A DNA stretch of 64,000 bases from Blastococcus sp. LR1. Its GTDB lineage: Bacteria > Actinomycetota > Actinomycetes > Mycobacteriales > Geodermatophilaceae. Under the pieces are notes generated by a model that was not told the DNA's origin, made no database searches, and was given only the letters and a program-made list of their open reading frames with translations. Where the stretch lies: the NCBI RefSeq assembly GCF_020166105.1, contig NZ_JAIUJY010000001.1, positions 620,001-684,000 of the forward strand. The letters run 5' to 3'. Of the stretch, positions 42,128 through 62,405 are shown in pieces. Made by a program: the position numbers and the translations under genes. How positions within the stretch are numbered: the first letter of the stretch is position 1; every line of letters begins with the position of its first letter.

Positions 42128-42424
42128 CCCGACTCGCGGGGCGCGGGAGGCCCGGGCAGCGGGGGATGCCGGCCCGGCCAACAGGTTCGCTAGGCCACTA
42201 GGGCGCCGACCGTCCCGTCGGCCAGACGACCGACCCCTGCGCGCAGCGAGCTCGCCGGCGCCGGCTATGGCCAATCCCCATGGTCTCCGGATAGCGACAC
42301 GGCTCCCGGAGGAAGTCAAGTCCCCTGTGGAACCGGTGGACGGTTGTCCGCCGATCGACGCAGCCGCCACAGCCCGAGTCGGCACCACCGCAATCTCGTG
42401 TCCGCGGAAAAAAAGGAGGTCGTC

Positions 42425-43558
42425 ATGGGTCGAAGGGCTTGGGGCACGGTCCGCCGGCTCCCCTCAGGCCGCTACCAGGCTCGGTACCCGGACGTCTCGG
42501 GCAAGCAGGTCTCGGCACCCCACACGTTCGCGACCAAGGCTGACGGCAATCGATGGCTCGCCAAGGTGCAGACCGAGTTGGACTCGGGCCGCTGGATCGA
42601 CCCGAAGGCGGGCAAGGAGACGCTCCAGGTCTATGCCGAGCGGTGGGTCGAGACCCGCCTCGTCCGCGGCCGACCGCTGGCCCCCCGCACAGCCGAGCTC
42701 TACCGGGCACAGCTCAGGAACCACATCGTCCCCGCGTTGGGTTCGACGCCACTGCGCCAGCTGGACGCGTCCACCGTCCGGGCCTGGTACGGGAAGCTCA
42801 GCGGTCTTGATGGACCTGGCCAGGTCACGGCAGCGAAGTGCTACCGACTGCTGCGCGCCATCTGCACCACGGCGGTCGACGACAACCTCATCGCTCGAAA
42901 CCCCTGCTCCATCCGTGGTGCGGGACAGGAACGATCGAGCGAACGACCGATGTTCACTGTTACTCAGGTCCAGGCGCTCGTCGATGCCGTCGAGGATCGC
43001 TGGCGAGCGCTGATCCTCCTGGCCGCCTGGACAGGCCTCCGCATAGGTGAGCTGTCGGCGCTTCGCCGAGTACACCTGGACTTAACGGCAGGCACCGTGA
43101 GCGTCCGGAGCTCCGTCGTCGACGTAATCGGGCAGGAACGCTCCTACGGACCGCCGAAGTCGGCCGCCGGCCGCCGAACGGTGGCCATCCCGCCGCACAT
43201 CATCGACAACCTGGAGCACCACCTCGCGACCTACGCGCAGCCCGGCGCACAAGGGCTGGTCTTCATAGGGCCCAAGGGTGGGCCGATCCGGCGCAACAAC
43301 TTCTCCGCACGGGTGTGGGGTCCAGCAGCAGCGGCCGCCGGACTCCCGGCCGGCGCCCATCTGCATGACCTCCGCGGCTGGAGCGCCACCGTCGCCGCCC
43401 GGCACGGCGCTACCACCAGGGAGTTAATGCACAGACTAGGGCACGCCTCCCCCGCCGCGGCCCTGCGCTACCAGCGTGCCGAGCAAGAGCGAGATGCCGC
43501 GCTCGCCGCCGCGATGAGCGCAACCCAGTCGTCATCGGCAGATGCGGACGCAACTTGA
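42425..43558 (+). CDS. int: Tyrosine-type site-specific integrase
   Basis: 377 residues from the ATG at 42425, with AAGGAGG 5 nt upstream. An AP2-like arm-binding domain (about 5-60) and SAM-like core-binding domain (65-165) precede the catalytic domain. Arg206 (TGLRIGEL), Lys245, His314/Arg317 (HDLRGW), His340 (HRLGHAS) and the nucleophile Tyr349 (LRYQ) are all present, so it should be active. It probably integrated this island. No duplicated tRNA end was found next to it. Confidence 0.93.
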   Translation: MGRRAWGTVRRLPSGRYQARYPDVSGKQVSAPHTFATKADGNRWLAKVQTELDSGRWIDPKAGKETLQVYAERWVETRLVRGRPLAPRTAELYRAQLRNHIVPALGSTPLRQLDASTVRAWYGKLSGLDGPGQVTAAKCYRLLRAICTTAVDDNLIARNPCSIRGAGQERSSERPMFTVTQVQALVDAVEDRWRALILLAAWTGLRIGELSALRRVHLDLTAGTVSVRSSVVDVIGQERSYGPPKSAAGRRTVAIPPHIIDNLEHHLATYAQPGAQGLVFIGPKGGPIRRNNFSARVWGPAAAAAGLPAGAHLHDLRGWSATVAARHGATTRELMHRLGHASPAAALRYQRAEQERDAALAAAMSATQSSSADADAT

Positions 43559-44998: not shown

Positions 44999-45081
44999 CT
45001 GAATCGAATGTACGCCTCCAGTGCCACCGATTCATTCGACGGCCTTGACGTGCACTATCGGAGTTCAGCGCCGGAAGGTGG

Positions 45082-45873
45082 TCAGAGCACCTGGACCAGG
45101 CGGCCACCGTCCGCGCGCAGCGCGGCGCCGTTGGTGGCCGAGGAGAGCGGGCTGGCGAGGTAGGTGACCAGGCTCGCCAGCTCGGCAGGCTCGAGGAAGC
45201 GCTGCACGAGCGAGCTGGTGTTGCTCGCGGCGATGGCGGCCTTCATGTCCTCCTCGGACAGCCCCTGCACGTCAGCGACGTGGCGGACGGCGGACGCGAC
45301 GCCGTCGCTGTAGGTAGGGCCGCCCAGGACCGTGTTGACCGTGACCCCGGTCCCCCGCGTGAGCTTGGCGAGACCGTTGCTCAGCGCGAGCACCGCAGCC
45401 TTGCTCACCCCGTAGTGGATCATGTCCGCCGGGACGTCGACCCCGGATTCGCTGCTCACCATGACGATGCGCCCCCACCCCCGCTCGAGCATGCCCGGCA
45501 TCAGCTGTCGCGACAGCCGCACGGCGCTCATCAGGTTGACGTCGAGGACGCGCCGCCAGTCCGCGTCCGTTAGGGCCGCGAAGGGCCTGACCTCGAAGAC
45601 CCCGACGTTGTTCACCAGGACGTCGACGTCACCGACCGCCTCGAGCAGGCGGCCGAGCTCGTCGTCGTCCGCGACGTTACCGGCGATCCCCGACACCTCG
45701 GTTCCGTGCTCCTCCTCGCGCAGACGTCGGACGGCGGCCTGGACGCCGTCGGGCGTGCGGCCGTGGAGGACCACGGCCGCGCCCTCGGCCGCGAGCGCCC
45801 GCGCAACGGCGTAGCCGATGCCTTGCGTCGAGCCGCTGATGAACGCCCGCTTGCCGGTCAACCGCAGATCCAT
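45082..45873 (-). CDS. SDR-family oxidoreductase
   Basis: 263 residues of the classical short-chain dehydrogenase/reductase type. The cofactor motif is GSTQGIG (about 14-20), followed by NNVG, the catalytic Ser in VSSESG and YGVSK (YxxxK). An Arg in HGRTPDG after strand 2 suggests NADP(H). The substrate cannot be assigned. It is divergent from a MarR regulator, with two palindromic boxes between them, so it is probably the regulator's target. Confidence 0.92.
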   Translation of the reverse strand: MDLRLTGKRAFISGSTQGIGYAVARALAAEGAAVVLHGRTPDGVQAAVRRLREEEHGTEVSGIAGNVADDDELGRLLEAVGDVDVLVNNVGVFEVRPFAALTDADWRRVLDVNLMSAVRLSRQLMPGMLERGWGRIVMVSSESGVDVPADMIHYGVSKAAVLALSNGLAKLTRGTGVTVNTVLGGPTYSDGVASAVRHVADVQGLSEEDMKAAIAASNTSSLVQRFLEPAELASLVTYLASPLSSATNGAALRADGGRLVQVL

Positions 45874-45899
45874 GTCCGTCCACCCTCACCCGTGATGAC

Positions 45900-45940
45900 T
45901 TGCTTGAGCAAGCGAACGTACACGTGACTTGCCTGAGCAA
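45900..45940. promoter_or_regulatory. Paired operator between the SDR and MarR genes
   Basis: Two copies of TTGCyTGAGCAA (45900-45911 and 45929-45940), each an inverted repeat TTGC/GCAA, lie 29 bp apart in the divergent gap. This spacing places both on nearly the same helix face. MarR proteins bind such dyads; here they could repress both divergent genes. Confidence 0.65.
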
Positions 45941-45984
45941 CTGACCTAGCCTGCGTGCATGTCCTGCACCCGCCGTCCGCGACC

Positions 45985-46506
45985 ATGACCGAGCACCCCG
46001 ACCCGTCCCGGTTCGACGGCGACGAGCTCCTCACCTGGTCCGGTCTGGCAACGGTGCTGGAGTGGCTGCCGCCCCTGCTGGACGCCCAGCTGCAGCGCGA
46101 CGCCGGGCTCACCCACTTCGAGTACGGCCTGCTCTACGCGCTCTCCGCCGCGCCCGACCGGACCCTGCGCCTGAGCGTCCTGGCGGGCTACGCCAACAGC
46201 TCGCTCACCAAGCTCTCCCGCGGCATCACCCGGCTGGAGGGGCGGCAGTGGGTCCGCCGCACGATCGACCCCACCGACGGGCGCTACACACTGGCGACCC
46301 TGACCGACCTCGGGCAAACCACGGTCGAGCAGGCGACGCCGGGGCACGTCGCGGCCGTCCGGCAGCTGGTCCTCGCGCCCTTGACCGCGGCCCAGCGCCG
46401 GCAGCTCCGCGACATCACCCAGCGCATTGTGGGCGCCGCCGGATCCGTGCAGCCCTGGCGATCGCCCGCCGAGCAGCCCCCGGCCGACACGACCGAGCAC
46501 CGCTGA
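45985..46506 (+). CDS. MarR-family transcriptional regulator
   Basis: 173 residues from the ATG at 45985; in-frame starts at 45955-45958 are possible but lie close to the operator. The winged helix is clear: FEYGLLYALSAAPDRTLRLS, the recognition helix YANSSLTKLSRGITRL and the wing VRRTIDPTDGRYTLATLT. It probably represses itself and the divergent SDR gene via the two TTGCyTGAGCAA boxes, with release by a small ligand. The ligand is unknown. Confidence 0.9.
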   Translation: MTEHPDPSRFDGDELLTWSGLATVLEWLPPLLDAQLQRDAGLTHFEYGLLYALSAAPDRTLRLSVLAGYANSSLTKLSRGITRLEGRQWVRRTIDPTDGRYTLATLTDLGQTTVEQATPGHVAAVRQLVLAPLTAAQRRQLRDITQRIVGAAGSVQPWRSPAEQPPADTTEHR

Positions 46507-46584
46507 GTCCGGCGGCGGCTGCGCCCGCAAGGACGTCGGCAGCACGCAGGATCGACCTGGCAGGGGTCGGCTGCGCCGCGGGGG

Positions 46585-47037
46585 TCACAGCAGCTGCTTC
46601 TCGAACCAGTGATGCGCGAACGGTTCGTCGTTGAACGCCGGAACCTCCACGAACGCGGCGCTGCGGTACAGGCCGATCGCCTCCACCAGCGTCCTGTTCG
46701 TCTCCAGCCGCAGGGTGCGGACGCCCGCGTCCCGGGCCTGGTGCTCGAGCTCGTCGAGCAGCCGTCGACCCACACCCAGCCCCCGAACCGACGTCGACAC
46801 CCACATCCGCTTCACCTCCGCCGGTGCGTCGCCGTGGAACCTGAGCGCCACGCACCCCACCGGCTCAGCACCCGCCCGTGCGACCAGGAGCAGTCCGGCG
46901 GGGAGCCGCAGGTCCTCGTCCGTGGCAGGCAGGCTGGCGGCCGGGTCGAACCGGTCGTCCCGGCTCGCGAGCTCGGCGAAGTAGGCCGCGATGCACCACC
47001 GCGCATACGGGTGCGCCGGATCCTCGGGGGCGACGTC
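46585..47037 (-). CDS. GNAT-family N-acetyltransferase
   Basis: 150 residues from the GTG at 47037 (product begins VDVAPEDPAHPYARW); in-frame starts at 47076, 47085 and 47118 exist and the true one is uncertain. The acetyl-CoA pyrophosphate loop is VRGLGVGRRLLDELEHQARD, preceded by VKRMWVSTSVRG and followed by LRLETNRTLVEAIGLYRSA. Similar domains occur fused to MarR regulators, and a MarR gene lies next door convergently. The acetylated substrate is unknown. Confidence 0.85.
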   Translation of the reverse strand, partial: DVAPEDPAHPYARWCIAAYFAELASRDDRFDPAASLPATDEDLRLPAGLLLVARAGAEPVGCVALRFHGDAPAEVKRMWVSTSVRGLGVGRRLLDELEHQARDAGVRTLRLETNRTLVEAIGLYRSAAFVEVPAFNDEPFAHHWFEKQLL

Positions 47038-47427
47038 CACTGCCCGACGACCAGCCTGCCGTCCGGACTGCCCCACGAGCCGGACCCTACGTCGTCGATG
47101 CGACCGTTGGTGGGCCACCTCCTTCAGCCTCGTCGGTCATACGACGGCGGCGGACGCACTCGATGGCCCGGCGGCAGCCAGAGCCAGCTCTTGGGCGACT
47201 GCGTAGGGGGTTCGGCTGGCGAGATTGCGACTGGCAGCGCTTGCTCAGCGTGGCGGCGGCATTTCGCTGCGTGGGTCGCGGAGGACCTGCCCCGTCGTTG
47301 CCCGTCCGGCGAGGACGTTCAACCATCGGAAGGGATGACGGCAGCGGCTATCCCCCGGTCGAGGCAGACCGCCGCCCACTGAGCCAAGCCGGGAGTGCGA
47401 ACGGCCGATGTACGCGAGGTGAGTGAC
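47038..47427. other. Gap between the GNAT and LOV genes
   Basis: About 390 bases between divergent genes. It should contain both promoters. I see GAGGTGAG before the ATG at 47428 but no clear promoter boxes and no further gene. Part of this gap may belong to a longer GNAT N-terminus. Confidence 0.35.
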
Positions 47428-49671
47428 ATGCAAGCCGCCACGGATGACGGTATCGAGGACATCTTGGCCTCCGGAGACGTGCGCGGCGTCTTCCAGCCGA
47501 TCATCGACCTCGACAGCGGGCAGGTCGTGGCCTATGAAGCCCTCGCTCGCGGTCCCGAGGGTAGTCAGTTGGAGCGGCCCGACGTCATGTTTGCCGCGGC
47601 CCGTGCGGCCGGACGCCTAGCCGAGCTGGACGCCGTCTGCCGCAGCGCTGCTTTCTGCGGCGCGGTCGACTTGGGTCTCCTGGCCCCGCTCACCGTCTTC
47701 GTCAACGTCGAGCCGGAGGTGCTGGACTACGCGCCGTTGGACGACCTGCTGGCCATCGCGGCCAACGCGCCCACCGAGCTGCGCGTGGTCATGGAGATCA
47801 CCGAACGAGCCCTGGCCGCCCGCCCGGCGGAACTGTTGCGCACCGTCGAGAGGGTTCGCGAGCTGGGATGGGGGATCGCGCTGGACGATGTCGGCGCCGA
47901 CTCCATGTCGCTGGCCTTCATGCCGCTGCTGCGCCCGGACGTGGTCAAGCTCGACCTGCGGCTCGTGCAGGAACGGCCCGGGCCGGCGATCGCCGAGATC
48001 ACGAATGCCGTCAACGCCTACGCGGAGCGCAGCGGCGCAAGGGTGCTGGCGGAGGGCATCGAGACCGACGCCCACCTGCGTACCGCGAAGGCGCTCGGGG
48101 CGACCCTGGGCCAGGGGTGGCTGTTCGGTCGTCCCGCTGCGGGGCCCGCGGCCACTTACCCGATCGGCGCGTTGGCGCTGCCGCTGCCGACCGAGGTGTT
48201 GGGGGATGCGAGCGCGTCGCCGTTCGCTGCCCTGCCCGAGGGAACTCTGCTGCGTCGCTCTCCGAAGTCGCTGCTCATCGAGCTGTCCAAGCAGCTGGAG
48301 CGTGAGGGCATGCGACTCGGGGAGACGGCGGTCGTGGCCGCCACGTTCCAGGAGGCCCAGCACTTCACGCCCGCAACGGCCGCCCGCTACCGCGACCTCG
48401 TCGCCCGCACCGGGTTCGTCTGCGCGCTCGGCGAGGATCTTCCCGTCGAGCCCGTGCCGGGGGTCCGCGGCGCTGCGCTGCAGCCGGAGGACCCCGTCCG
48501 TGGCGAGTGGGACCTTGTCGTGCTCGCCCCGCACTTCAGCGCCGCACTACTCGCCCGCGATCTGGGCGACACCGGACCGGACCTGGAACGGACGTTCGAG
48601 TTCGCCCTCACCTACGAGCGGGAGACCGTCGCACGAGCGGCCCGCGCGCTGCTGTCCCGCGTCGCCCCCCGACCCGAAGGCGCCGTGACACAGCCTTCAT
48701 CGCTCGGGGTCGGCCCGACCGGTAGCGCACCGGCCCCGGCCGGCCCGGCAACGACCGAGGAGCTGCTGCACCGGGCGCTGTCGGCCACGACGAGCGGCGT
48801 CACGATCGCCGACATGCGACGGCCGGATGCCCCCCTCGTGTTCGTCAACTCCGCCTTTGAGCAGCTCTCGGGTTTTCGTCTCGAGGAAGTGCTCGGCCGC
48901 AACTGTCGATTCCTCCAGACCGCGGACACCGACGCTGCGGCGGTTGCCCGCATTCGCGATGCCATCGCCCGTGGTGGGGAAATCCGCGAGACCCTGCTCA
49001 ACGTGCGCGGCCCTGAGCGCACGCCGTGGTGGAACGAGATCTACCTGGCCCCGGTGACCGACGAGATGGGCGCCGTCGTCCAGTACATCGGCGTGCAGAA
49101 CGACGTGACCGCGCGGGTCGAGGCCGAGCGCGCGCTCATCGAGGAGCGAGACCGTGCCCGCAGCTACCTGACCCGGATCGAGCAGTTCGCCTTCACCGAC
49201 CCGCTGACCGGCTTGCTCAACCGCCGCCGGCTGGAGGAGCAGGCAGAGGCCATGCTGCTCGACGCCCAGCTCACGGGCTCTGCGCTGGCGCTGCTCTTCG
49301 TGGATCTGAACGGCTTCAAGGCAGTCAACGACCACCTCGGGCACGCGGCTGGAGATGACCTGTTGGTGACCATCGCCGGACGGCTACGGGGACGGCTTCG
49401 GCGCGGCGACCTGCTCGCCCGGCTCGGTGGCGACGAATTTCTCGTGATCCTGCCGGGGCTCGATCCGGCCACGGCGGTAGACGAGGCGGCTCAGGTCGCG
49501 GACGGCCTGACCGCTGCCGTCGCGGAACCTGTGGTGCTCGGCGAGCACCGGGCGACCGTCGGTGCCAGCATCGGGGTGAGCACCAGTCCCGCGGACGGCA
49601 CGCAGTTCGCCGGTCTGCTGCACGTGGCCGACGTGCGCATGTACGAGGTGAAGCGGAGCTCCGCCCGCTAA
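47428..49671 (+). CDS. EAL-DICT-LOV-GGDEF blue-light/c-di-GMP protein
   Basis: 747 residues, no membrane helix. EAL phosphodiesterase domain at 15-240: YEALAR at 36-41, plus EITER, ALDDVGAD, VKLDL and AEGIET metal/catalytic motifs. DICT sensory domain at about 270-412. LOV domain at about 445-565 with GRNCRFLQ, whose Cys493 would form the flavin adduct, and flavin contacts Asn525, Asn536 and Gln557. GGDEF cyclase at 585-747 with an RxxD inhibitory site (658-661) and GGDEF at 667-671. It can both make and break c-di-GMP, with blue light acting most directly on the cyclase. The start is the ATG after GAGGTGAG. Confidence 0.93.
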   Translation: MQAATDDGIEDILASGDVRGVFQPIIDLDSGQVVAYEALARGPEGSQLERPDVMFAAARAAGRLAELDAVCRSAAFCGAVDLGLLAPLTVFVNVEPEVLDYAPLDDLLAIAANAPTELRVVMEITERALAARPAELLRTVERVRELGWGIALDDVGADSMSLAFMPLLRPDVVKLDLRLVQERPGPAIAEITNAVNAYAERSGARVLAEGIETDAHLRTAKALGATLGQGWLFGRPAAGPAATYPIGALALPLPTEVLGDASASPFAALPEGTLLRRSPKSLLIELSKQLEREGMRLGETAVVAATFQEAQHFTPATAARYRDLVARTGFVCALGEDLPVEPVPGVRGAALQPEDPVRGEWDLVVLAPHFSAALLARDLGDTGPDLERTFEFALTYERETVARAARALLSRVAPRPEGAVTQPSSLGVGPTGSAPAPAGPATTEELLHRALSATTSGVTIADMRRPDAPLVFVNSAFEQLSGFRLEEVLGRNCRFLQTADTDAAAVARIRDAIARGGEIRETLLNVRGPERTPWWNEIYLAPVTDEMGAVVQYIGVQNDVTARVEAERALIEERDRARSYLTRIEQFAFTDPLTGLLNRRRLEEQAEAMLLDAQLTGSALALLFVDLNGFKAVNDHLGHAAGDDLLVTIAGRLRGRLRRGDLLARLGGDEFLVILPGLDPATAVDEAAQVADGLTAAVAEPVVLGEHRATVGASIGVSTSPADGTQFAGLLHVADVRMYEVKRSSAR

Positions 49672-49831
49672 CCTCGGGCGTTCCGTCGTTGGCCTCAGCC
49701 AGCTCGTGGCCGTGCAGGAAGATTGCCTCATCCGATGCGCGCGGTGCCAGGGAGTGAACGGCAGTTGCGTGCGTGGGCGCCGTCTCATCCACCGTGCCTG
49801 ACGGCCGCCGATGCACCTCGGCACCCAGGGG

Positions 49832-51385
49832 TCAGGAAGCCATGGCTTCGAAGGCTGCGGCCATGCTTGCCTGCTCCTCCAGAACGTCTCCGATGCGTGC
49901 CTGTACGGCGTCCAGTCGGCCGATGATGTGGCTGGTGGCACCGATGCCGGCGGTGACGGTCTGACTGGTCGCCTGGATTGCGGCGATCTGGTCGGCAACC
50001 CGCTGTGTTGCCTTCGCGGTTTCTCGGGCGAGGTCCTTGACCTCGCTGGCGACGACGGCGAACCCCTTACCGGCCTCCCCGGCGCGGGCGGCCTCGATCG
50101 TGGCGTTGAGTGCCAGCAAGTTGGTCTGCTCCGCGATGCCGGAGATGATCCGGATGACCTCGCCGATGGCCGTCGACGCCTGGGTGAGGGCGTCGACCTC
50201 GTCGCTCATGGTGGAGGCCTGCGTCACCGCCTGCTCGGCGACCCGGCCGGCCTCCCCAGCCGCGTCTCGCAGCCGGGCGACGGTGTCCAGCAGATCCCGG
50301 GCACTGTCGGCCGAGGACTCCGTGCGGCGCAGCACGTCCAGCCGCTGGGAGACCAGTTGCTGGACATTGCGCAGCGCAGCGGCCCGCGACTCGGACAGCT
50401 CGATCGTCTCGGTGACGAAGAAGTCCATCGTGCCGATCACCCGCCCGCCGACTACCAGGGGGAAACACACGCCTGAGCGGACCCCGGCGCGCTGCGCGGC
50501 AGGAGCGCGCACGCAGTCGGTCACCTCGGCCAGATCGCGGACGAAGTACAGGTCTCGCGCCCGCCACGCCCGGCCCGACAGCCCGACGCCTTCAGCGAAA
50601 CTGGCGGCCAGGGTGACCTCACGAAATTCCTCGCCGGCGGAGCCGGACTCCTGCTGGAAGCGCAGCAGCTGCGCGTCCTCATCAAGCTTCCAGTAGGAGC
50701 CGTAGGCCCAGCCGAAGGCGGTACGCACGGTGTCCAGTGCCACTCGTAGCGCCGCCTCAGCGGTCCCGGCGGACCCGATCTCGGTGACCACGGCGGTAAC
50801 GGCGGCCCGATCGTCGAGAGTTTCCCGCAGCGCGGCCTTGTCCAGGGCGGCGCGCCGTGCGTGGGCCACGAGCCGGTCCAGCGCCTCCCACTTCTCTTGA
50901 CGGGCACCGGCGAAGGTCATCGACCCAGCGTTGTAGTACTCCTTCAACGCCACCACCCGACCATCCTCGATCACCGGGACGAGCACTCCGTGCGTCGCCC
51001 CGGCGGCCTGCGCAGCCTGCCACCGCAGACACTCCGACGGATTGCTGCTGGCGTCCGTCAGCACCACCCGGCGCGTCCTGATCGCCTCGCCGCCGAACCC
51101 ATCTCCTGCCCGGAGACGCTCCACCCGCCGGCCGCCGAAGCTAGCCATCCCACCCGACAGCGGGCCCGACTCGCCCACCATGTGGAAGGCCCCGGCGTCG
51201 TCGGCCATCCACACCGCCCCGTAGCCGAGACCGAGAGCAGCCACCAGGGTTGCCCCCACGGTCTTAAATGCCGCGGTCCGATCTCGAACGCCGTCGAGGG
51301 CAGCGATCACCTTCTCGACCGCCTCCACGTCGCGTGGCATCTCAACGGCTGACGGGCCCGCACTGACCTGAGGACGACGACGCAT
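49832..51385 (-). CDS. Soluble GAF-GAF-MCP signalling protein
   Basis: 517 residues from the ATG at 51385, which has GGGAG upstream; an in-frame extension to 51547 is not protein-like. Two GAF domains (about 30-170, 180-330) precede a methyl-accepting signalling domain (about 345-517) with the conserved hairpin tip [20 protein letters not shown]. No membrane helix or HAMP is present, so this is a cytoplasmic receptor. The C-terminus is shorter than usual. The tip would contact CheA/CheW, encoded elsewhere. The GAF ligand is unknown. Confidence 0.9.
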
Positions 51386-51652
51386 CGAATTCTCCCGCAA
51401 AGCTTGGCGACGGGTCGCACGACAGCAGCAGCGCAGCCGAATCGCCCCGAACGCTTGGTAGTTCCAGCTGGTCATCGGCGACCACGGCTGGAGCTCAAGT
51501 CGAACTGCACCCGCCCGACACATATCACCATGTCGCGTTCGCGCCACGACGTTGCACGAGCGCGAATGTGCTGATCGGCGGGTGGCGAAGGGCCGTATCA
51601 GACGCCAGCAGGTTCTGGCCGCGAGCTGGGCAGTTGTCGGTTCGCCGATCCG

Positions 51653-52102
51653 CTACCGGCGGTACGCCGAGCACCAGCATGGGCTCGACAACTTTACGGA
51701 TCCGTGGCGGGCGTCCGTGCGGATGGCCGATCCCTGCGCCGGACCCGAGCCATCAACAGGAGGGGTTCGGACGAGGTCTGCGAGCCCGGCCAACCGCAGC
51801 AACCGCGTCAGCCAGGGGCTCGGGTCGAGCAGCCGCATCCCGAACCCGCGATCGCGCGCAAGGGCGCCGGCACGCGCCAGCGCACGAAGTCCCTCCACAT
51901 CGCAGAAGGTCAGCTTCGCCACGTCGACCACCAGCGTGCACCGGGTGGTGCGCGTCAGCGCCGCGACGGCGTCCGTCATGCGCTCCGCGCAGAAGCGGTC
52001 GAGCTCGCCGGCCAGCCGAGCAAGACCCGCCTGCGGGTCGACCGTCAGCGTCAGCGGCTGCAGGACGGATTGAGGCCACTGGAGGCCAGTTGGTGGTTGC
52101 AC
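51653..52102 (-). CDS. STAS-domain anti-sigma factor antagonist
   Basis: 149 residues from the GTG at 52102 with GGGAGAG upstream. A STAS fold is visible: LTLTVDPQAGLARLAGELDR, the central strand TLVVDVAKLTFCDVEGLRAL and helix ALARDRGFGMRLLDP. At the position where SpoIIAA-type antagonists have the phosphorylated Ser (DSSG), it has DVEG, so partner-switching by phosphorylation is doubtful. The C-terminal 30 residues are variable. It resembles standalone STAS proteins common in Geodermatophilaceae. Confidence 0.8.
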   Translation of the reverse strand: MQPPTGLQWPQSVLQPLTLTVDPQAGLARLAGELDRFCAERMTDAVAALTRTTRCTLVVDVAKLTFCDVEGLRALARAGALARDRGFGMRLLDPSPWLTRLLRLAGLADLVRTPPVDGSGPAQGSAIRTDARHGSVKLSSPCWCSAYRR

Positions 52103-52667
52103 TGCACTCTCCCGGCGAGCACGAAGATCGGCGGCGCAATCGCATCGCCGCGCCCACATTCGTGAAGCCCGGCCGGTGGTTCGACCAGTTGACGCTCCGG
52201 ATCTATGCCGAGACAGCACCGTCTTCAAACCCACTGCCCCTTCCGCGCGTGGCGTACGAGGACTCCCCGCCTCGCGCACCGACCATCACGCCTCGGGGAG
52301 GACACCGCCGACACAACGGTGCCGTCCAACTCTGTTAGTTGAGGCGGCCTGGTCAGGACCCGATGCGCCATGCGGTCGCTGCTGTCGTCGGAAGACGCTT
52401 GAGTCTTGGCGGCCCGGAGCCAAATCATGACCGCGCTGCTCTCAGCGGCCATGCTGCGCACCAACGCGCGGCCGGAGCGAGAACCGGTGTCGGGCCCGCC
52501 CGCGCTGCAGTGCAGTTCGCGACGGGGGTAGTAGCACCACGTCCCGATGGCGTGGAACCAAGCGGCTGTAGCCATCGACCGCATCGGCTGGGGTGGTGGA
52601 ACCACGAAAGGGTCCGGCACGCCGCTCCAGCGGCGTCGCGGACCACTGACCGGGCCACGGTGAGCGC
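52103..52667. other. Gap between the STAS and DUF1059 genes
   Basis: These 565 bases include the upstream region of the leftward STAS gene. Open frames on both strands lack motifs and ribosome sites. I see no supported gene or RNA. Confidence 0.35.
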
Positions 52668-52850
52668 TTACGCGACCGAACGGATGACGGCCCGAATTCG
52701 CGAAATCAGGTCGTCCGACATCTGCGGCTCGGTGAGCCCGTGGTCGTGCTGCGCGTGAACGGTGCAGACCGCCAACAACTCTTCCTCGCTGCTGACACGG
52801 AAGCTGGCGCCACAGCCAGGCACGACGTCGCCGCAGGCATATTCCTTCAT
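52668..52850 (-). CDS. DUF1059 family protein
   Basis: 60 residues with the family pattern: MKEYACGDVVPGCGASFRVS, then EEELLAVCTVHAQHDHGL and a C-terminal ISRIRAVIRSV helix. The conserved C-G-x(4)-G-C and H-x-x-x-x-H residues suggest a small metal site. Function unknown. It follows the EAL gene by 4 nt and is probably co-transcribed with it. Confidence 0.9.
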   Translation of the reverse strand: MKEYACGDVVPGCGASFRVSSEEELLAVCTVHAQHDHGLTEPQMSDDLISRIRAVIRSVA

Positions 52851-52854
52851 TGCC

Positions 52855-54099
52855 CTACTCCTCAGTCCTCACCGCAGCGCCGACCAGCCGCAGCTCTCGG
52901 TCTGGACTATCGGCACTCGCAGGCGCACTCGTGAGCTGAGCGAGACGCAACATCATGCGTTCGGGGCGGACGATGCCGGCGTAGCCGCCGAAGCTGTCCT
53001 CGCACACCACCGGGTCGAACCGCGTACCTGTCGGACGAGTCATGGCGCGCGTCGCCACGTCGGCGACGTCGGCGTCAGCGGAAGCCCGCAGGCTCACGGA
53101 GAGGACGTGGGTCTCACCGGGGGAATCGCCGCTTCGCAGCTGGCGGCGGACCAGGCAGACTGCCCGGTCGTTCCGGTCCAGTACCGCGACGAACTCCAGA
53201 CTTGGATCGGCGCAGAAGACGGTCGGAACCTGGCCCAGGTCGGAGTCGCTGATAGCCGTGGTCCGCTCCACCAAGCTGGCGATGCGGTCGACCCGGCTCC
53301 GGTCATCGGCAAGAGCGCGGATCCGCTCCCCCAGCTCGGGGGCCAGGCTGGTCCAAGTCGGTGACGGGCGACCGAACAGCCAGCCCTGCCCGAGCGGCAC
53401 GCCCATGCGGATGAACGCCTCGAGCTCCTCCGGGCGCTCGATACCTTCGGCGATGAGCGCGGCGTCGAGACGGCCGGCATAGCTACCCAGCAGCTCAGCA
53501 AGGGCCAGCTTTACCTCGTCACGATCGGCGTGGTCCACGAGCGCCCGATCGATCTTCACCAGTTCCGGGCGGACCAGAGCCAACTGCTGAAGACCGGAGT
53601 AGCCAGATCCCGCGTCGTCCAAAGCCACTGTCGCACCGACGGCGCGCAGCCGATCGAGGAGCGCAGTGAGCCGCGCGTGATCGTCGACCTGGACGTGCTC
53701 GGTCAGCTCCAGCACCAGCCGGCTGAGGTCAGGCGCCGCCGCAAGGACGTCGGCCAGCTCTGGTTGATGCATCAGGTGCGGACTGATGTTGACGGTGAGG
53801 AAACAGCCCGCGGGCAGTCGGTCCCGGGCCGCGATGGCTGCGGTCACGACCCTTGCTTCGAGCTGAGCGGCGAGGCCCAATCGGTCGGCGGCCGCGAACC
53901 ACACGTCGGGGGAAGCAGTCGGAGGGCCCGCGAAACGGGACAACGCCTCGTATCCAGCGACGACGCCGCGCCGAAGGTCGATGATGGGTTGAAACACGAG
54001 GGTCGGCTGGTCCGGGTCACCGAGCACCTTGTCGATGGCTGCGCGCCACACCGCATCACCCGACCTTCCCGGTGCAACGGCTTCGATCGTGCCCTCCAT
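52855..54099 (-). CDS. EAL-domain phosphodiesterase with CBS-like C-terminal domain
   Basis: 414 residues, soluble. EAL domain (about 30-265) with YEALSR (50-55), VNISPHL, LELTEH, ALDDAGSGYS, VKIDRALV and AEGIE, so all residues for c-di-GMP hydrolysis appear intact. The C-terminal 150 residues (PTVFCADPSLEFVAVLDRND, GTRFDPVVCEDSFGGYAGIV) resemble the paired CBS-like sensory module seen in some EAL proteins. GGAGG lies 9 nt before the ATG. It pairs with DUF1059 downstream and adds to the c-di-GMP enzymes in this region. Confidence 0.9.
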   Translation of the reverse strand: MEGTIEAVAPGRSGDAVWRAAIDKVLGDPDQPTLVFQPIIDLRRGVVAGYEALSRFAGPPTASPDVWFAAADRLGLAAQLEARVVTAAIAARDRLPAGCFLTVNISPHLMHQPELADVLAAAPDLSRLVLELTEHVQVDDHARLTALLDRLRAVGATVALDDAGSGYSGLQQLALVRPELVKIDRALVDHADRDEVKLALAELLGSYAGRLDAALIAEGIERPEELEAFIRMGVPLGQGWLFGRPSPTWTSLAPELGERIRALADDRSRVDRIASLVERTTAISDSDLGQVPTVFCADPSLEFVAVLDRNDRAVCLVRRQLRSGDSPGETHVLSVSLRASADADVADVATRAMTRPTGTRFDPVVCEDSFGGYAGIVRPERMMLRLAQLTSAPASADSPDRELRLVGAAVRTEE

Positions 54100-54424
54100 G
54101 CCTTAGCGCCTCCGTTTGCTGAATCGGACAGCGCACCTCGTCGGTGCAGTCCCTCTCGATATCGACAATGCGGTCGCTGAGCTTGACGACGACACAGCTG
54201 ACCACCCCATCGAGTCAGGCACCGGCGCTGCCGACGGTCCGCAGCGGTTACTGATCGCACTCGCTGCATCGGGTGGGGGCAACACCGTCGGCCGAGACAG
54301 GTGCCGCCCAAGTCAATTGGACGCAAGGCGGTTTCGAGTCAACTCCCCGAACGAGGTCCCGATGTTCAAGGCGACCTCCGGATGCAGGTCGCCTTCGCCG
54401 TCAGGGCGAGTTCGGCGACGGCGG
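54100..54424. other. Divergent gap between EAL and MCP genes
   Basis: These 325 bases separate two divergent signalling genes and must contain both promoters. A frame open through most of the gap leads into the MCP gene but is not protein-like. No clear promoter boxes or palindromes are seen. Confidence 0.3.
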
Positions 54425-56065
54425 ATGGATAGCCCTTCTCTTCGTGTGAGGCTCTCCGTGATCTCGCTTCTCCGCCGACTGCGTCTCGGGCCGCGGCTGA
54501 CGATCGCCTTCGCTGTTGTCCTGCTGCTCCTGGGCGGGGTACTGGCCGTCGGCATGCTCACCGCCGCGCGTCAGGACGCGGCGGCCGAGGCCATGGAGCG
54601 GGAGGAGCGTCTGGTCTCGGTGGCCCATGAGGCGAAGTTCGGCTCGGCCGACTTCAACGGCTGGCAGACGGCGTACGCGCTCGACGCCGTGCTGGGCAAC
54701 CCGCTACTCGACGAGACAGGGTCGCGACAGTCGTTTCTGCTCTCCACCGCGGGCTTCGAGCAGAGCTTGCGACGGATGGCGGACATGAGCCACACCGATG
54801 CTGTCGACGAGCACCTGGTGACGCTCGGCAACTTGTACGACCAATTCATGGCCCTCGACCAGCAGATCGCTTCTGATTACCAGTCCGGTGACGCGCAGCG
54901 GTTCCAGCGAGCCACCGAGGCGGTGCTCGGGCGAGCGATCGAGCTGTTCGACGCCATGGCGGGAGAGGTCCAGACGCTGGTCGACACCGCCGAGGCAGAC
55001 TTCGCGGCCGCCCGAGAGGATGCTGAGGCGGCGCGTCGCGACGGCGAACTGCTGATGTGGCTGATCGGTGGGGCCGCGCTCGTCATCGCAGCAGCGGTGG
55101 GCTTGGGCATCACTCGGTCGCTCACCGGACCGGTGAGCGCCGTACGTGAACGGCTGGACCTCCTCGCGGACGGGGACCTGGCGACGCCGCTCGAGGTGGG
55201 CGGCCGCGATGAGCTCGGTGACATGGCTCGCTCCTTGCACCGAACCCTGGGCACCCTGGCGGCGGCGATCACGGAGATCTCCGCCGGAGCCGTAACCTTG
55301 TCCGCCGCCGGCGAAGAGCTGACCGCGACTTCAGCGCAGCTCACCACGACCGCAGAACGCTCGGCAAACCAGTCCGGCATGGTCGCGGCCACCGCCGAGC
55401 AGGTGGCGGCCTCGGTGCAGACTGTCGCCGCCGGTACCGAGGAGATGGGCGCCAGCATCCGCGAGATCGCCAGCAACGCGGCTGGTGCTACCGAGGTGGC
55501 CAATCAGGCTGTCACCATGGCGGCCGACACCACCTCTGCGGTCGCCCGGCTCGGGGCTTCGTCGGCTGAGGTCGGCAACGTGGTCAAGGTCATCACCTCG
55601 ATCGCCGAGCAGACCAACCTGCTGGCGCTTAACGCCACCATCGAGGCCGCGCGCGCCGGCGAGGCCGGCAAGGGCTTCGCCGTGGTCGCCAATGAGGTCA
55701 AGGAATTGGCTCAGGAGACGGCGAAGGCCACCGAGGACATTGTCGTCCGGGTAGCGGCCATCCAGACCGACACAACCGCAGCAGTGGCGGCGATCTCCTC
55801 GATCAGCGACATCATCGGGCACATCAGCGACCGACAGACCACCATCGCCTCCGCGGTGGAAGAGCAGACGGCCACCACCAATGAGATGAGCCGGAGCGTC
55901 GCCGAGGCAGCCACCGGAGCCAGCCGGATCGCTGGGACTGTCGCCGAGGTCGCGGCGGCTGCGCAGGAGGCGACCCAAGGGGCCAGCGGCACAGCCTTGG
56001 CCGCGAACGAGCTGTCCCGCATGGCCGGTGAGCTTCAGCAACTCGTCGGCCGTTTCCGCTGCTGA
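54425..56065 (+). CDS. Membrane methyl-accepting chemotaxis protein
   Basis: 546 residues from the ATG at 54425; a GTG at 54459 with GAGG 8 nt upstream is a good alternative. TM1 is about 22-42 ([19 protein letters not shown]), then a periplasmic four-helix-bundle-like domain, TM2 about 215-235 ([17 protein letters not shown]), HAMP, and a methyl-accepting domain with the tip [20 protein letters not shown], identical to the soluble receptor at 49832. It signals to CheA/CheW encoded elsewhere. The ligand is unknown. Confidence 0.93.
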
Positions 56066-56450
56066 CTGCCTCCACGAGGGGGCCTGATGAAGAGCGTTGA
56101 GCCGGCGATGCGGCCTCGCATCGGCCCACAGCTCGGAGCCGCAACCTCTGCCACACCCAGTCCCCGAGCCGCCACGGCGACGAGTCACTGCGTCATGGCA
56201 GGGGCGCGGATCGGCGCGCTCGTCGTCATCAGCGCACGGTGGCGACCGCAACCTGACGCAGGCGAGAAGAGGCCGGAGCTCGGACGGCTGCCGACCCCGA
56301 TGGCGGTCGTCCGTGCTGACGCCGGGCACACGGTCAACCGCGGCCGCATCGCCGACCACGACAATCACGGTTGACGGGCGCCCTTCCGAGGTCGAGGCGA
56401 ATTTGGGATCCAGGGGTGTGGCACCGGCGGCGTTGCCGGACACAAGCAGG
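56066..56450. other. Gap before the sigma factor gene
   Basis: These 385 bases follow the MCP gene and precede the sigma factor. An in-frame upstream extension of the sigma gene covers most of it, but its sequence is Arg/Pro-rich and unlike region 2 of a sigma factor. The sigma promoter is expected here; none is recognisable. Confidence 0.3.
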
Positions 56451-56993
56451 ATGATGAGTAGCGACGAGGCGTTCGCCGACACATACCGGATCCACCATGC
56501 TGCGGTCTGCCGGTACGTCGCGCGGCGGCTGGGGTCCGCGCCGGACAACGAAGTGCACGACATCGCCTCCGAGGTCTTCGCTACCGCGTGGCGGCGGCGG
56601 GCCGTCGTACCTCCGGAGCCGTTGCCTTGGCTCTACGGTGTGGCCCGGCGGGTGCTGGCCAACGAACGCCGGGCGGCAGAGCGCCGGCGACGCCTGGTTG
56701 ACCGGCTCTTCACACAAGCGCCCGACCTCGTCGCGGGCGCCGTGGACGCCGACCGGCCCGTGATCCTCGACGCCTTGGACCGGCTCTCCCCCGCCGATCG
56801 CGAGGTGCTCGCGCTGGCAGCGTGGGAGGCCCTCGGACCCGCCGACATCGCTGTCGTGCTGCGGTGCTCGCGTTCAGCGGCCTCCATGCGGCTGCACCGG
56901 GCCCGCGTCCGTCTTCGCGAGGCGATGTCCGAGCTCGACCCACCACCGAGGACTGCCGTCCACCACGATCTCACCCCGGAGTCGATCCCGTGA
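56451..56993 (+). CDS. ECF-like RNA polymerase sigma-70 family factor
   Basis: 180 residues from tandem ATGs at 56451/56454. Region 2 is HHAAVCRYVARRLGSAPDNE and the core-binding EVFATAWRRRAVVP with PLPWLYGVARRVLANERR. Region 4 is LDRLSPADREVLALAAWEAL, then PADIAVVLRCSRSAASMRLH. It would direct RNA polymerase to a small regulon. Its stop overlaps the next gene by 4 nt (GTGA), and that membrane-anchored product is probably its regulator. Confidence 0.9.
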   Translation: MMSSDEAFADTYRIHHAAVCRYVARRLGSAPDNEVHDIASEVFATAWRRRAVVPPEPLPWLYGVARRVLANERRAAERRRRLVDRLFTQAPDLVAGAVDADRPVILDALDRLSPADREVLALAAWEALGPADIAVVLRCSRSAASMRLHRARVRLREAMSELDPPPRTAVHHDLTPESIP

Positions 56994-58000
56994 CCGATGA
57001 CCTGCAGCTCCTGGCCGCCGCCGACCCTGCACCGGCATCCCGCTGGCCCGATGGGCGGCTAGCGGCCAGCTCCGAGGAGCACCTGCTCCGTTTGCTGAAC
57101 GGAAGGCAGGACCACGCGCAGGCAACGCTCCGCCGCCGGGCCCTCCTCGTCGTAGCGGCCGCGGGTTTGGCCGCCACACTTCTGCTGGTGACCACCGGCG
57201 GGTCCGGGGAATCGCCGCGTCCGATCTCCCTGGCGGTCCAGCCGGTATCGGCGCCCGCGCCGCTCGCCGTCGATCCGGGGTCGGCCGTTCCCTCGCTGGC
57301 CGACCTGGCAGCCATCGCCGCCGAGCGAGCGACCGGCACTCCGCCGTCCGTCGTCAGGGGCAGTCATGTGCGCGCCTGGTACCTGGGCTTCGGCGTCGAG
57401 GGGGAAGGGTTCCCTGCCGTCGTGCTTCCCGAAGAGCGACTGTCCGTAGCTCGCGCCGACGGCAGCCTGCAGGTCACCACGGTCCCGGCCGATCCCAGCC
57501 GTCCCGCGGAGGTCAGGCTCGCCGCCGACGCTCCGGCGCCCGACGATGCGCAGTTGCAAGTGGTCGACCCGGCACAGCTGACGGAGGATTCCGCGGACCG
57601 GACTCCTCCGCCCGCGGAGCCGAGCGCGCTGGCAGCACACCTGGCCGTCGTCCGGGCCCCCTCACCGCCGACCCCCTCAGAGCTGCTGACCGGCCTCGAG
57701 CAGGTGTTGATCCGCTGGACGCCAGGGCCGGCGGAGGATGCCGCGATCGCCGGCTGGCTGGCCCAGCAGCCGTGGCTGGCCCCCCTCGGCACCGTCACCG
57801 ACCGCCTCGGCCGGCCGGGCGTGGCCTACGCCCTCGACGCCACTGCGGACGGGGCGACCTTCCAGACCCGGCACACCGTCGTCCTGGACCCGGCGACCGG
57901 CGCCGTCCTGTCCATCGAACTGGCCTTCATGGAGAACACCGGCGAGTGGGACGTCGAACCGCATGCAGTGATCAGCTACGTCGCTTACCGCGTCCGATAG
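56990..58000 (+). CDS. Membrane-anchored partner of the sigma factor (probable anti-sigma)
   Basis: 336 residues. A cytoplasmic N-terminus (1-42, DLQLLAAADPAPASRWPDGR) leads to one membrane helix at about 45-65 (ALLVVAAAGLAATLLLVTTG). A long extracytoplasmic Ala/Pro-rich domain follows with beta-like segments (AWYLGFGVEGEGFPAVVLPE; YALDATADGATFQTRHTVVL). The topology and 4-nt overlap with the sigma gene fit a transmembrane anti-sigma factor, although no zinc anti-sigma HxxxCxxC motif is present. It resembles CU044_5270-like proteins next to sigma genes in actinobacteria. Confidence 0.75.
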   Translation: MTDDLQLLAAADPAPASRWPDGRLAASSEEHLLRLLNGRQDHAQATLRRRALLVVAAAGLAATLLLVTTGGSGESPRPISLAVQPVSAPAPLAVDPGSAVPSLADLAAIAAERATGTPPSVVRGSHVRAWYLGFGVEGEGFPAVVLPEERLSVARADGSLQVTTVPADPSRPAEVRLAADAPAPDDAQLQVVDPAQLTEDSADRTPPPAEPSALAAHLAVVRAPSPPTPSELLTGLEQVLIRWTPGPAEDAAIAGWLAQQPWLAPLGTVTDRLGRPGVAYALDATADGATFQTRHTVVLDPATGAVLSIELAFMENTGEWDVEPHAVISYVAYRVR

Positions 58001-58874
58001 AGCCCGGACGCTCGGGCGGCGCTCTCCGTCGACCAATCGGCTGCTCATACCCAGCACGTCAGCAAGCCGCGCCCGCCGTCGCAACGGGACTTCTCTTGCC
58101 ATCACCGCCGGCGTCGCCGAGGGCTGGACGGGCGCGGAAGGGCCGACCTGGCTGGTCCTACGCCGAAGCTCTCACGGAGCCGGAAATTTCCAACTCCACC
58201 AGCTTGCCGATCGCGGGTTCCGATCGTCGCAAAGAGCACGACCCGTCGCGTCAACTCACCAGGACTGGTGCGACGAGCGTGCGCGAACATTCAGGCCGCG
58301 CTTCGTAGTGATGCAAGCGTGCGCACAGGGTCGGGTCCAGTCGTCTGAGCGTCGAGCGAGACAACCACAACGGCCGCGCGGTCGCCGCTCCATCTGTCTG
58401 GTGCGGCCCGCGGTCGGGCGCACGTTGTCGTGCTCGCAGGTGGCGGCCAACGTCCCTTTCGCCACGTTGTTCATGGTGGCCGCTGCGGCGTCTGCTGGCC
58501 TGATCGCGGCCGAGATCTCGCGCGTCGGCAACGTTGCCGCGATAGGCGCTCCCAGTCGATGAGCGATGAGGGGCGACAGCTGGAACGCGGTGTTGTCCGC
58601 CGCGCTGTCCTTGGGCACTTCTTGTCCCTCCGGATGGGCTGGACGGTGCGCGATCACATTGCAGATGACAGCGATCCTGGACGTTGTCCCGCTATCGCTC
58701 GCCGTCGCCCTCAGCCGATCCCGGCCGCCCCCGCTGAGCGCGGGCCTCGTATCGCCAAGAAGTGCCGAGGACCCGAAGCCGTCCCCTGCAGCCACCAGCC
58801 GGTTACGGGAACTGCTCGTGTAAGGACCTCTAAGAGGACACCGTCGGGTCGCATGCCGACGGCTCGCATGCGAC
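58001..58874. other. 874-bp stretch without a supported gene
   Basis: The stretch follows the anti-sigma-like gene. Frames on both strands up to about 215 codons lack conserved motifs and ribosome sites. One minus-strand stretch (NVIAHRPAHPEGQEV) and one plus-strand hydrophobic stretch (ANVPFATLFMVAAAASAGLI) look somewhat protein-like, so a decayed gene is possible. Confidence 0.3.
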
Positions 58875-59756
58875 CTACGTCCGGCGGCGCGCCTTATCGG
58901 CATACATCAACCCGTCTGCCTCGTGCAGGATTCGGCTGCGGTCGACATCGAGCGCCACTTCACTGGGCACGTGCGCAATTCCTGCAGAGAACTGGATGGG
59001 CTTGTCTGCCAGGCGGGCGTGCAAGGGTGCTGCCATCGCTGCTCGTAGCCGGACGACCAGTCCGCGCGCCCGCGCCGGGTCGCTGTCCTCAAGGACGACT
59101 GCGAACTCGTCTCCGCCGATTCGGGCAGCCGTGTCGCTGGTGCGAAGCACCGAGGTCAAGCGGTGGGCGAAGGCCACCAGCACAGCGTCGCCGAGCGAAT
59201 GACCGTAGTTGTCGTTGACCGACTTGAACTCATCCACGTCGATCATCAGTACGCATGTCGAGGTTCGCTGGCGGGCGCCGCGGTCGAGGGCGTGACGAAG
59301 TCGGTCCTCGAACAAGCGGCGATTGGCGAGGCCTGTAAGTGAGTCATGCAGCGCACGATGCTCAAGGTGCGCCTCGATAGCCTTCCGTTCGCTGATGTCA
59401 TCGACGACCATGACGAGTAGACCCACCTCGTCAGGCTCGTGGACCCACGAGGTGATGACCTGCACCGGCACGGCCTCCCCATCCACGCGCATCAGGCGGC
59501 ACTCGTGCCGCCACAGACGACTGCGGCGCTCGTTCAGGTCGACGCATGACTGCGTAGCTGCCGGCACGTCGTCCGGGTGAGTGAAGTCGAGCATTGACCG
59601 GCCGCGCAGCGCAGCCGGCTGGTCGCCGAGCAGCCGACACAGCGCGCCATTGACGTGCAACAGCACGCCGGACGTCGACGTGACCGCCATACCGACGGGG
59701 GCGAACTCAAAGCCGACGAGCTGGCTGGAATCGAGGCCGATGGGTGGGTCCAACAC
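58875..59756 (-). CDS. PAS-GGDEF diguanylate cyclase
   Basis: 293 residues. A PAS domain (about 10-125; FAPVGMAVTSTSGVLLHVNG, DFTHPDDVPAATQS) precedes the GGDEF domain (130-290), with DSLTGLANRRLFEDRL, IDVDEFKSVNDNYGHSLGD and IGGDEFAVVLED. The inhibitory RxxD site is present as RTSD five residues before the motif. It should make c-di-GMP and be product-inhibited. PAS lacks the LOV cysteine motif, so its signal is different. Soluble. The GTG start has only a weak GAG upstream. Confidence 0.92.
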   Translation of the reverse strand: MLDPPIGLDSSQLVGFEFAPVGMAVTSTSGVLLHVNGALCRLLGDQPAALRGRSMLDFTHPDDVPAATQSCVDLNERRSRLWRHECRLMRVDGEAVPVQVITSWVHEPDEVGLLVMVVDDISERKAIEAHLEHRALHDSLTGLANRRLFEDRLRHALDRGARQRTSTCVLMIDVDEFKSVNDNYGHSLGDAVLVAFAHRLTSVLRTSDTAARIGGDEFAVVLEDSDPARARGLVVRLRAAMAAPLHARLADKPIQFSAGIAHVPSEVALDVDRSRILHEADGLMYADKARRRT

Positions 59757-60076
59757 CTACTCAGTAATGCCCGAACCTCGGTCGATCTACGCCTTCGCCC
59801 CAGGAGCTGCCCCATACTCGTAGGTCTCCAGAGCCGCTCAGCTCTCATGCGCCGAGGCCGCCACCGCGCTCGAGCAAACCGTGACCGCTCGAGCCCCATG
59901 ACACTGCTGCGCTGATCCTGGCGCTCTGCGCAGCCTCGCGGGCCAACATCGTGACGGTATGAGCGAACGCGACCGGACGTCGGCGGCCGTGCCGGACCTC
60001 ACGCCTGGAAGAACATTGCGCTCGCACCCGGCTTATCGATCACACGCAGGGGTACGCCAACGGAAAACCGATACCA
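59757..60076. other. Divergent gap before the anti-sigma kinase
   Basis: These 320 bases lie between the PAS-GGDEF gene (leftward) and the HATPase gene (rightward). Both promoters should be here. I find no clear operator, RNA or further gene. Confidence 0.3.
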
Positions 60077-60550
60077 ATGGAAGTTGATGTGAGCGAGCAA
60101 GATTGGGCGCAGCAGCCGCCACCCGTCGTCAAAGGCAACATCTGGACCTGGCAACTAGAGAGCACCGGTCAACTACCTGCCGTGCGTGCGGAGCTTCGTG
60201 GCCTGCTCTCGCTGGTGAGCCGCCTCGATCCAGTCAGCGACACCGACTTCCAGGACGTGTTCCTGTTGGCCTTCGACGAGTTGGCGTCCAACGCACTACG
60301 CCACGGCGGCTGCCCCGTGCGCGCCCGGGTGACCGCTGGCTCCGACGGGGTACTGGTCGAGGTGAGTGACGCTGCAGCCACCTGTCCGCCGACGCCGGCC
60401 GTGGGCCGGGATCCATCCCAAGGTGGCCTAGGCCTCGGGCTGGTGGCTGCGTTGGCCTCTGCGCACGGATGGGCGACGCGGGCCGAGCGCAAGCACGTGT
60501 GGGCGTTCTGTCAGAGGTTGGCCTCGCCACCCCCCGGCTCATTCGGCTGA
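60077..60550 (+). CDS. Anti-sigma regulatory factor, GHKL ATPase (RsbW/SpoIIAB-like)
   Basis: 157 residues from the ATG at 60077; the GTG at 60089 has GGAAG at better spacing. The HATPase_c_2 fold shows the N-box FDELASNALRHGG, VEVSDAAATCP as G1 and GGLGLGLVAALASAHGW as G2. Such kinases bind sigma factors and phosphorylate STAS antagonists on Ser or Thr. A STAS gene with the phosphorylatable DSSG motif lies 187 bp downstream on the same strand, a likely substrate. Confidence 0.88.
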   Translation: MEVDVSEQDWAQQPPPVVKGNIWTWQLESTGQLPAVRAELRGLLSLVSRLDPVSDTDFQDVFLLAFDELASNALRHGGCPVRARVTAGSDGVLVEVSDAAATCPPTPAVGRDPSQGGLGLGLVAALASAHGWATRAERKHVWAFCQRLASPPPGSFG

Positions 60551-60736
60551 CCGCGCCGGGCGCCGGAGCGGTATGACGGCACCTCGTCGGGCGTGACCAC
60601 AGGGCAATCGCCGCTCGTCGGCCTCGCTCGCAGCATTGACACGCTCATCGGCCGGTGCACCGGCTTATCGAGCGGCTGTTTACGATGTACACGCAACGCT
60701 CCCACGAGCACGACTCCGTAGAAGGAAGCACGGTCC

Positions 60737-61075
60737 GTGAGTCCCGCACCCCCACATCCTCCAGGGTCCATCGTGGTCGACCACACGGAGTCAGGTCCTG
60801 TCCTTCAGCTAGATGGCGACATCGATATGGCTGTAGTTGCTGCATTCGAGGCCTTGGCGTCTGACGACATCGCAGCGCTGAGGAACGACACCCGCCTGTC
60901 AGTGAACGCGTCCGCGGTCACGTTCATGGATTCCAGCGGACTAGCGTTTCTGGTCCGCATGACGCTGCCGACCCGGGCCGATGGCGGTCGCCCTGCGCTG
61001 CACTCTCCTAGCAAGTCCGTGCGAAAGATCTTGGATCTGACCGGACTGCACGGTCTGTTCGACGTGAAGCTCTGA
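60737..61075 (+). CDS. STAS-domain anti-sigma factor antagonist
   Basis: 112 residues from the GTG at 60737, with AAGGAAG upstream. A full SpoIIAA-type STAS domain: GPVLQLDGDIDMAVVAAFEA, TRLSVNASAVTFMDSSGLAF with the phosphorylatable Ser in MDSSG, and KILDLTGLHGLFDV. When unphosphorylated it would sequester the anti-sigma kinase and release a sigma factor. It is the probable substrate of the GHKL protein just upstream. Confidence 0.9.
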   Translation: MSPAPPHPPGSIVVDHTESGPVLQLDGDIDMAVVAAFEALASDDIAALRNDTRLSVNASAVTFMDSSGLAFLVRMTLPTRADGGRPALHSPSKSVRKILDLTGLHGLFDVKL

Positions 61076-61415
61076 CAGAGGCGCCCCTCTCGCTAACGCG
61101 CTTGGCCTTCTGACGGTCACCCGGGCCTCATGAGCCACCGCTCCGATTCGGCGCGGCCTCGAACGCGCGTGTGCAACCACGTTGTCCTGATCCAGCGCGG
61201 GAGCTCCACCAGGCGTGCTTCTCCTTCAGTGGCGTGACGCGTGGTCGCGCGCGGTTGATCAGAGCACTCGATGCCGAGCGGGTGCCTCCGCTGGGGCAAC
61301 GGGCTCAAGTAGTGAACGGCCAGAGCCGATCTTCAAAGTTCGAGAAGAAACGAGCGCTGGAGGTGGGCAAGGTGGTCGACGAACGCTGCGTCGCACCCCC
61401 ACGACAGATCGCCAC
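61076..61415. other. Gap before the membrane GGDEF gene
   Basis: These 340 bases contain upstream in-frame extensions of the GGDEF gene, but the translated sequence is not protein-like and has no motif. No RNA or operator is recognisable. Confidence 0.3.
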
Positions 61416-62291: not shown

Positions 62292-62405
62292 CAGCTGCGG
62301 ATAAACTGAGGCACGGTCGAATCCCTGGCCTGTTCACCGTATACACGCAGTGGCCCGCGCATCGAATACTCCGTGGCGACCCGGCAGCTGCGCTGAGGTC
62401 GCCAT

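Follow-up and report, generated by a model that had tools for sequence, protein, structure and literature searches.

The gene under study lies at 47428..49671 on the forward strand of the window, a 64,000-nucleotide stretch of the Blastococcus sp. LR1 genome, and encodes a chain of 747 residues. Read directly from the sequence, it starts with an ATG at 47428, ends with a stop codon at 49669-49671 and is preceded by a Shine-Dalgarno-like GAGG (47416..47419, +) spaced 8 nt from the ATG. Within this open reading frame, Pfam assigns four domains, all on the same strand: EAL (residues 13-236, 47464..48135; PF00563, E 3.6e-38), DICT (residues 264-412 as folded in an AlphaFold2 model, 48217..48663; PF10069 core 278-378, E 2.8e-12, 47.1 bits and thus above the curated cut-off of 23.8), LOV (residues 444-560, 48757..49107; PAS_9 466-562, E 2.9e-13, with LOV structures among the PDB matches) and a GGDEF diguanylate cyclase domain (residues 588-744, 49189..49659; PF00990, E 1e-40). 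The chain contains no transmembrane stretch, its top Kyte-Doolittle window being located inside the EAL barrel. Hence, the order of domains in one soluble chain given in a preliminary description of this DNA is borne out.

All metal and catalytic residues of the EAL domain are present (E37, N93, E123, E126, D153, D154, K174, E209 and Q229). In the LOV domain, the residues contacting the flavin or forming the adduct are complete (N492, C493, R494, Q497, R510, N525, N536 and Q557). The photoactive cysteine, whose codon at 48904..48906 falls within GRNCRFLQ, is Cys493, as had been numbered, and the flavin-binding Asn and Gln residues named with it are in place. The GGDEF domain carries its catalytic set (D626, K631, N634, D635, D643, G667-F671 and K742), with the active-site motif at residues 667-671 (49426..49440), as well as the RxxD inhibitory site, or I-site (R658/D661), in the form of RRGD at residues 658-661 (49399..49410), in agreement with the earlier view of an intact cyclase with its inhibitory site. 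In a PDB search, the closest solved relative was a LOV-GGDEF enzyme (8c05; E 2.4e-47, residues 439-684). Overall, the sequence gives good support to a soluble protein in which a LOV sensor is joined to a cyclase and to a probable phosphodiesterase, that is, to a predicted light-controlled bifunctional c-di-GMP protein.

Genomic setting and paralogues

The gene belongs to a cluster of signalling genes (45000-62300), in which GC3 is below that of the first 35 kb of the window. Downstream lie a GAF-GAF-MCP protein (49832-51547, -), a STAS protein (51653-52279, -), a second EAL protein with a near-canonical loop 6, DDAGSGYSG, and about 165 C-terminal residues beyond its assigned domains (52855-54099, -), a HAMP-MCP protein (54107-56062, +), a sigma-70 factor (56091-56990, +), a PAS-GGDEF protein (58878-59756, -) and a GGDEF protein (61215-62291, +). 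A phage-type tyrosine integrase (42194-43555, +) is encoded upstream of the cluster, about 4 kb from the gene; neither an adjoining tRNA nor the flanking direct repeats of an island were found there. No neighbour recurs beside the gene in relatives, which leaves it with no conserved operon partner. A recent plasmid transfer was rejected, no plasmid record containing a relative at E 1e-60.

Three members of the family are encoded in the genome: the window gene, a copy 66% identical to it (G000:C1:21989-24181) and a more distant one, 44% identical (G000:C3:389578-391764). A LOV search (E <= 1e-8) matched exactly these three, so all recognisable LOV input of the genome runs through the family, against a background of 29 EAL, 40 GGDEF and 2 PilZ matches. 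The 66% identical paralogue (also L034 9887-12205) has intact EAL, DICT and LOV domains, a 35-residue linker and a degenerate GGDEF (RRGDLVARWTRDSF) that keeps the RxxD. It occupies the usual locus of the family, which adjoins pheST and a SpoU rRNA methylase. The window gene was therefore rejected as the orthologue at this locus, its copy being elsewhere. Its place in the tree is, with weak support, among Klenkia, Kineococcus and LOV-less copies, not with the usual-site Blastococcus copies.

Couplings on either side of the LOV domain

The preliminary description had called the domain order unusual. This stands for the N-terminal EAL-DICT half, but a LOV domain directly before a GGDEF domain is the characterised arrangement of LadC (PMC10396304). 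Counted as in that work, from the D of D(I/V)(T/S) to the L of DxLT, the LOV-GGDEF linker extends over residues 559-593 (49102..49206, +), from the D of DVT to the L of DPLT, and is 35 residues long. LadC linkers fall into classes of 35 (long) and 21 residues (PMC10396304). The linker aligns with that of MsLadC without gaps; over a stretch that also takes in the start of the GGDEF domain, 13 of 37 positions are identical. Among relatives in which LOV and GGDEF are both recognisable, only lengths of 35 (82 rows) and 21 (5 rows), two heptads apart, were found; other lengths are confined to three rows in which one of the two domains has been lost. The third family member of the genome has the short-class linker of 21 residues. 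In the AlphaFold2 model, a helix at 561-588 is continuous into the GGDEF domain.

MsLadC is a long-linker switch whose cyclase is turned on more than 10,000-fold by blue light. Part of its inhibition in the dark comes from the RxxD loop, which then lies buried in the LOV groove (PMC12805367). The linker Arg reported for most LadC homologues (PMC10396304) is found in our protein as part of DVTAR. On the other hand, linker position 23 is a Leu, as compared to Lys140 in MsLadC; since a K140V substitution raises the dark activity of MsLadC (PMC10396304), the light switch is possibly leaky.

The connection on the other side of the LOV domain is of a different kind. Residues 416-441 (48673..48750, +) form a disordered DICT-LOV tether with AlphaFold2 pLDDT under 50, and in the rows with a 35-residue linker the tether, measured from R411 to A453, ranges from 37 to 79 residues with 21 different lengths. 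A fixed linker together with a variable, disordered tether argues for a rigid coupling of LOV to GGDEF and a loose tether to EAL-DICT. Most likely, light would thus act on the cyclase through a mechanical coupling, with only loose control of the EAL half. Blue light had been proposed to flip the net activity; the 35-residue linker does predict that the cyclase is switched on, but the tether offers no obvious way of passing the signal mechanically to the EAL domain.

The isolated DICT domain was modelled by AlphaFold2 with a pLDDT of 90.5 (best of five models). Foldseek matches to this model were mostly phospholipase D-like at the top, and weak (best E 2.1e-3; TM 0.39-0.50 for the top six); they included polyphosphate kinase 1, the TrmB sugar-binding domain, Tdp1 and PLD, which we take to share the PLD fold. 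The HKD motif is absent from the domain, and no solved relative of it was retrieved by sequence search. As a lead from this weak fold match, DICT may bind a ligand in the manner of TrmB and have no catalytic role; the earlier suggestion that it adds a second input is still a guess, and in a 2022 review DICT figures as a domain of unknown function (PMC8846402). In an even draw across the phylum, 23 of 396 genomes had a DICT profile match, so the domain type is uncommon outside the host groups of the family.

Taken together, we favour, with a probability of about 0.5, a soluble blue-light receptor made of two units, a LadC-type cyclase switch and a flexibly tethered EAL-DICT phosphodiesterase, on the basis of sequence, model and analogy. 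The C-terminal unit (443-747) would act as a LadC-type switch of the long-linker class. Without light, a LOV dimer would silence the pair of GGDEF domains by means of the I-site loop and the 35-residue linker, which is then folded back; in blue light, formation of the flavin-Cys493 adduct would straighten the linker into a coiled coil, allowing the two GGDEF domains to make c-di-GMP. The N-terminal unit (1-412), with EAL and DICT, would remove c-di-GMP continuously or under the control of a DICT ligand. The net effect would be breakdown of c-di-GMP in the dark and local synthesis in blue light. Here the motifs, the linker class and the conservation pattern are read from the sequence; from them we infer flavin binding and a photocycle, dimerisation, the direction of switching, both enzyme activities and any role of DICT.

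Family conservation and alternative readings

The EAL-DICT-LOV-GGDEF order is kept, beyond what chance would give, in about 100 relatives, the majority of which are full-length. Counting the window protein, 102 distinct members were aligned, most of them from Geodermatophilaceae and Kineosporiaceae; among named genomes, close relatives (57-73% identity) were found in Blastococcus, Geodermatophilus, Modestobacter, Klenkia, Kineococcus, Pseudokineococcus, Quadrisphaera, Cellulomonas and Motilibacter. EAL metal and catalytic residues are kept in 100-102 of the 102 members, E37 in 100, the N-terminus of the other two being apparently frameshifted. The LOV cysteine is retained by 90 of the 92 relatives that bear a LOV domain; the remaining two, both from Kineococcus, have lost the other parts of the flavin motif as well. 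The GGDEF active site, scored as intact when GG[D/E]EF or a close variant, the metal Asp/Glu and the Asn-Asp pair were present, is lost in 25 of 96, one of these failures (GGDEL) being borderline. A FastTree built from the EAL-DICT-LOV columns requires about 10 changes to account for the losses; the 25 are not independent, 12 forming one Blastococcus clade, and six have no LOV domain. An intact-GGDEF copy (L014 1450-3813, -) is nested in the degenerate-GGDEF Blastococcus clade of this tree, hinting at C-terminal recombination or parallel losses.

Because the active site was repeatedly lost in relatives that keep LOV and the linker length, the cyclase is not the sole reason to keep the light sensor. 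It is therefore conceivable, with a lesser yet real chance of being right, that light mainly controls the EAL domain, and that the GGDEF domain, whether or not it still catalyses, serves as a regulatory module binding GTP or, through RxxD, c-di-GMP, which relays the LOV state in the dimer. EAL and the LOV cysteine being maintained while the cyclase decays is consistent with this. A dead-GGDEF copy with intact LOV occurs in 12 Blastococcus genomes, in 9 of which no other full-length member was found, and two Modestobacter EAL-DICT-LOV copies end without a GGDEF (L130 6230-8806 and L132 6491-8848). There is also a precedent in SL2, a LOV-GGDEF-EAL protein whose phosphodiesterase is activated by light (PMC8846402). 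However, the EAL domain here is upstream of LOV, behind the length-variable tether, and the cyclase of the window protein itself is intact.

Retention of the I-site also bears on this reading. RxxD is present in all 71 intact rows and in 24 of the 25 degenerate ones, where it is among the best-kept columns of the GGDEF domain, as compared to Glu670 (24%), Asn634 (16%) and Lys631 (4%). LOV caging alone fails to explain this, because LOV-less copies keep RxxD too; c-di-GMP binding and plain structure are the alternatives, and a structural cause, like the shared ancestry of the 12 Blastococcus losses, would weaken the case for light control of EAL. Degenerate GGDEF proteins of the PopA and PelD type bind c-di-GMP at the I-site. 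They resemble the degenerate family members in having a lost active site and a kept RxxD, whereas the active site of the window protein is intact.

The EAL domain had been described as an apparently intact phosphodiesterase, which is right for its metal and catalytic residues, but its loop 6 is non-canonical. Residues 154-161 (47887..47910, +) read DVGADSMS and depart from DFG(T/A)GYSS, the motif associated with active EAL domains (PMC2994820), in missing the Phe, the second Gly and the Tyr-Ser. This variant is common to most of the family and could represent either a working form or a binding-only EAL. In the latter case, a light-gated cyclase would be combined with a trigger or receptor EAL that merely binds c-di-GMP; we consider this distinctly unlikely, as all metal and catalytic residues are retained, including the loop-6-anchoring E126, which is invariant in two family alignments. 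Pure receptor EALs have usually lost some of these residues. With every ligand invariant across the family, we favour an active EAL domain.

Flavin reduction is a possible mode of action for LOV-like PAS domains. A redox- or oxygen-sensing LOV, instead of or besides a light sensor (RmcA is discussed in PMC8846402), is very improbable here, the adduct Cys and Gln557 being intact and conserved and the Cys-less relatives having lost the whole flavin motif.

A broader and rather unlikely interpretation is that, through repeated decay of the cyclase, the LadC cage of LOV groove, 35-residue linker and I-site loop was preserved as a gate for c-di-GMP operated by light. Light would then control EAL across LOV; the window protein would be the two-way form, its dead-GGDEF paralogue the one-way form and DICT a ligand sensor with a PLD fold. 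The two-unit receptor, with a LadC-type switch and a loosely attached phosphodiesterase, is our preferred reading.

Comparison with known systems

LOV-controlled c-di-GMP enzymes are common, and in kind the protein is ordinary; GGDEF, alone or together with EAL, is present in about 18% of bacterial LOV proteins (PMC4844311). It is a clear new variant, with an evolutionary experiment readable in its family: a natural fusion, in Geodermatophilaceae and related actinobacteria, of a putative long-linker LOV cyclase switch with an opposing phosphodiesterase. Every LOV domain found in the genome (3/3) would report to c-di-GMP, and this single genome holds the intact 35-linker, dead-cyclase 35-linker and 21-linker forms. 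These three forms are a natural set for testing the targets of light in LOV-GGDEF/EAL proteins and the I-site as a light-gated element; the protein also yields a structural lead for DICT. A literature search, with the PNAS survey of LOV architectures outside its scope, returned no relevant paper on DICT with LOV or on c-di-GMP and light in Blastococcus.

The pairing of DICT with a c-di-GMP phosphodiesterase domain is shared with the DICT-HD-GYP protein of Microcystis (PF10069), which has HD-GYP where the window protein has EAL, plus LOV-GGDEF. SL2 of Synechococcus and other LOV-GGDEF-EAL proteins contain the same LOV, GGDEF and EAL parts. However, their EAL is C-terminal, after GGDEF, and they have no DICT, whereas in the window protein EAL comes first, followed by DICT and the disordered tether. 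In addition, the linker is 21 residues in the LOV-GGDEF-EAL proteins studied, as compared to 35 here, and LOV-GGDEF fragments of these short-linker proteins were reported not to be light-regulated cyclases (PMC10396304). The closest likeness is to the long-linker LadC class (MsLadC, PDB 8c05; SfLadC), with which the protein shares the passage from LOV to GGDEF, intact motifs, the 35-residue linker and RxxD. The LadC proteins studied consist of LOV-GGDEF alone, whereas EAL-DICT precedes LOV here. Judged by its sequence, the window protein contains a LadC-type module but is not itself a LadC protein, which has two domains.
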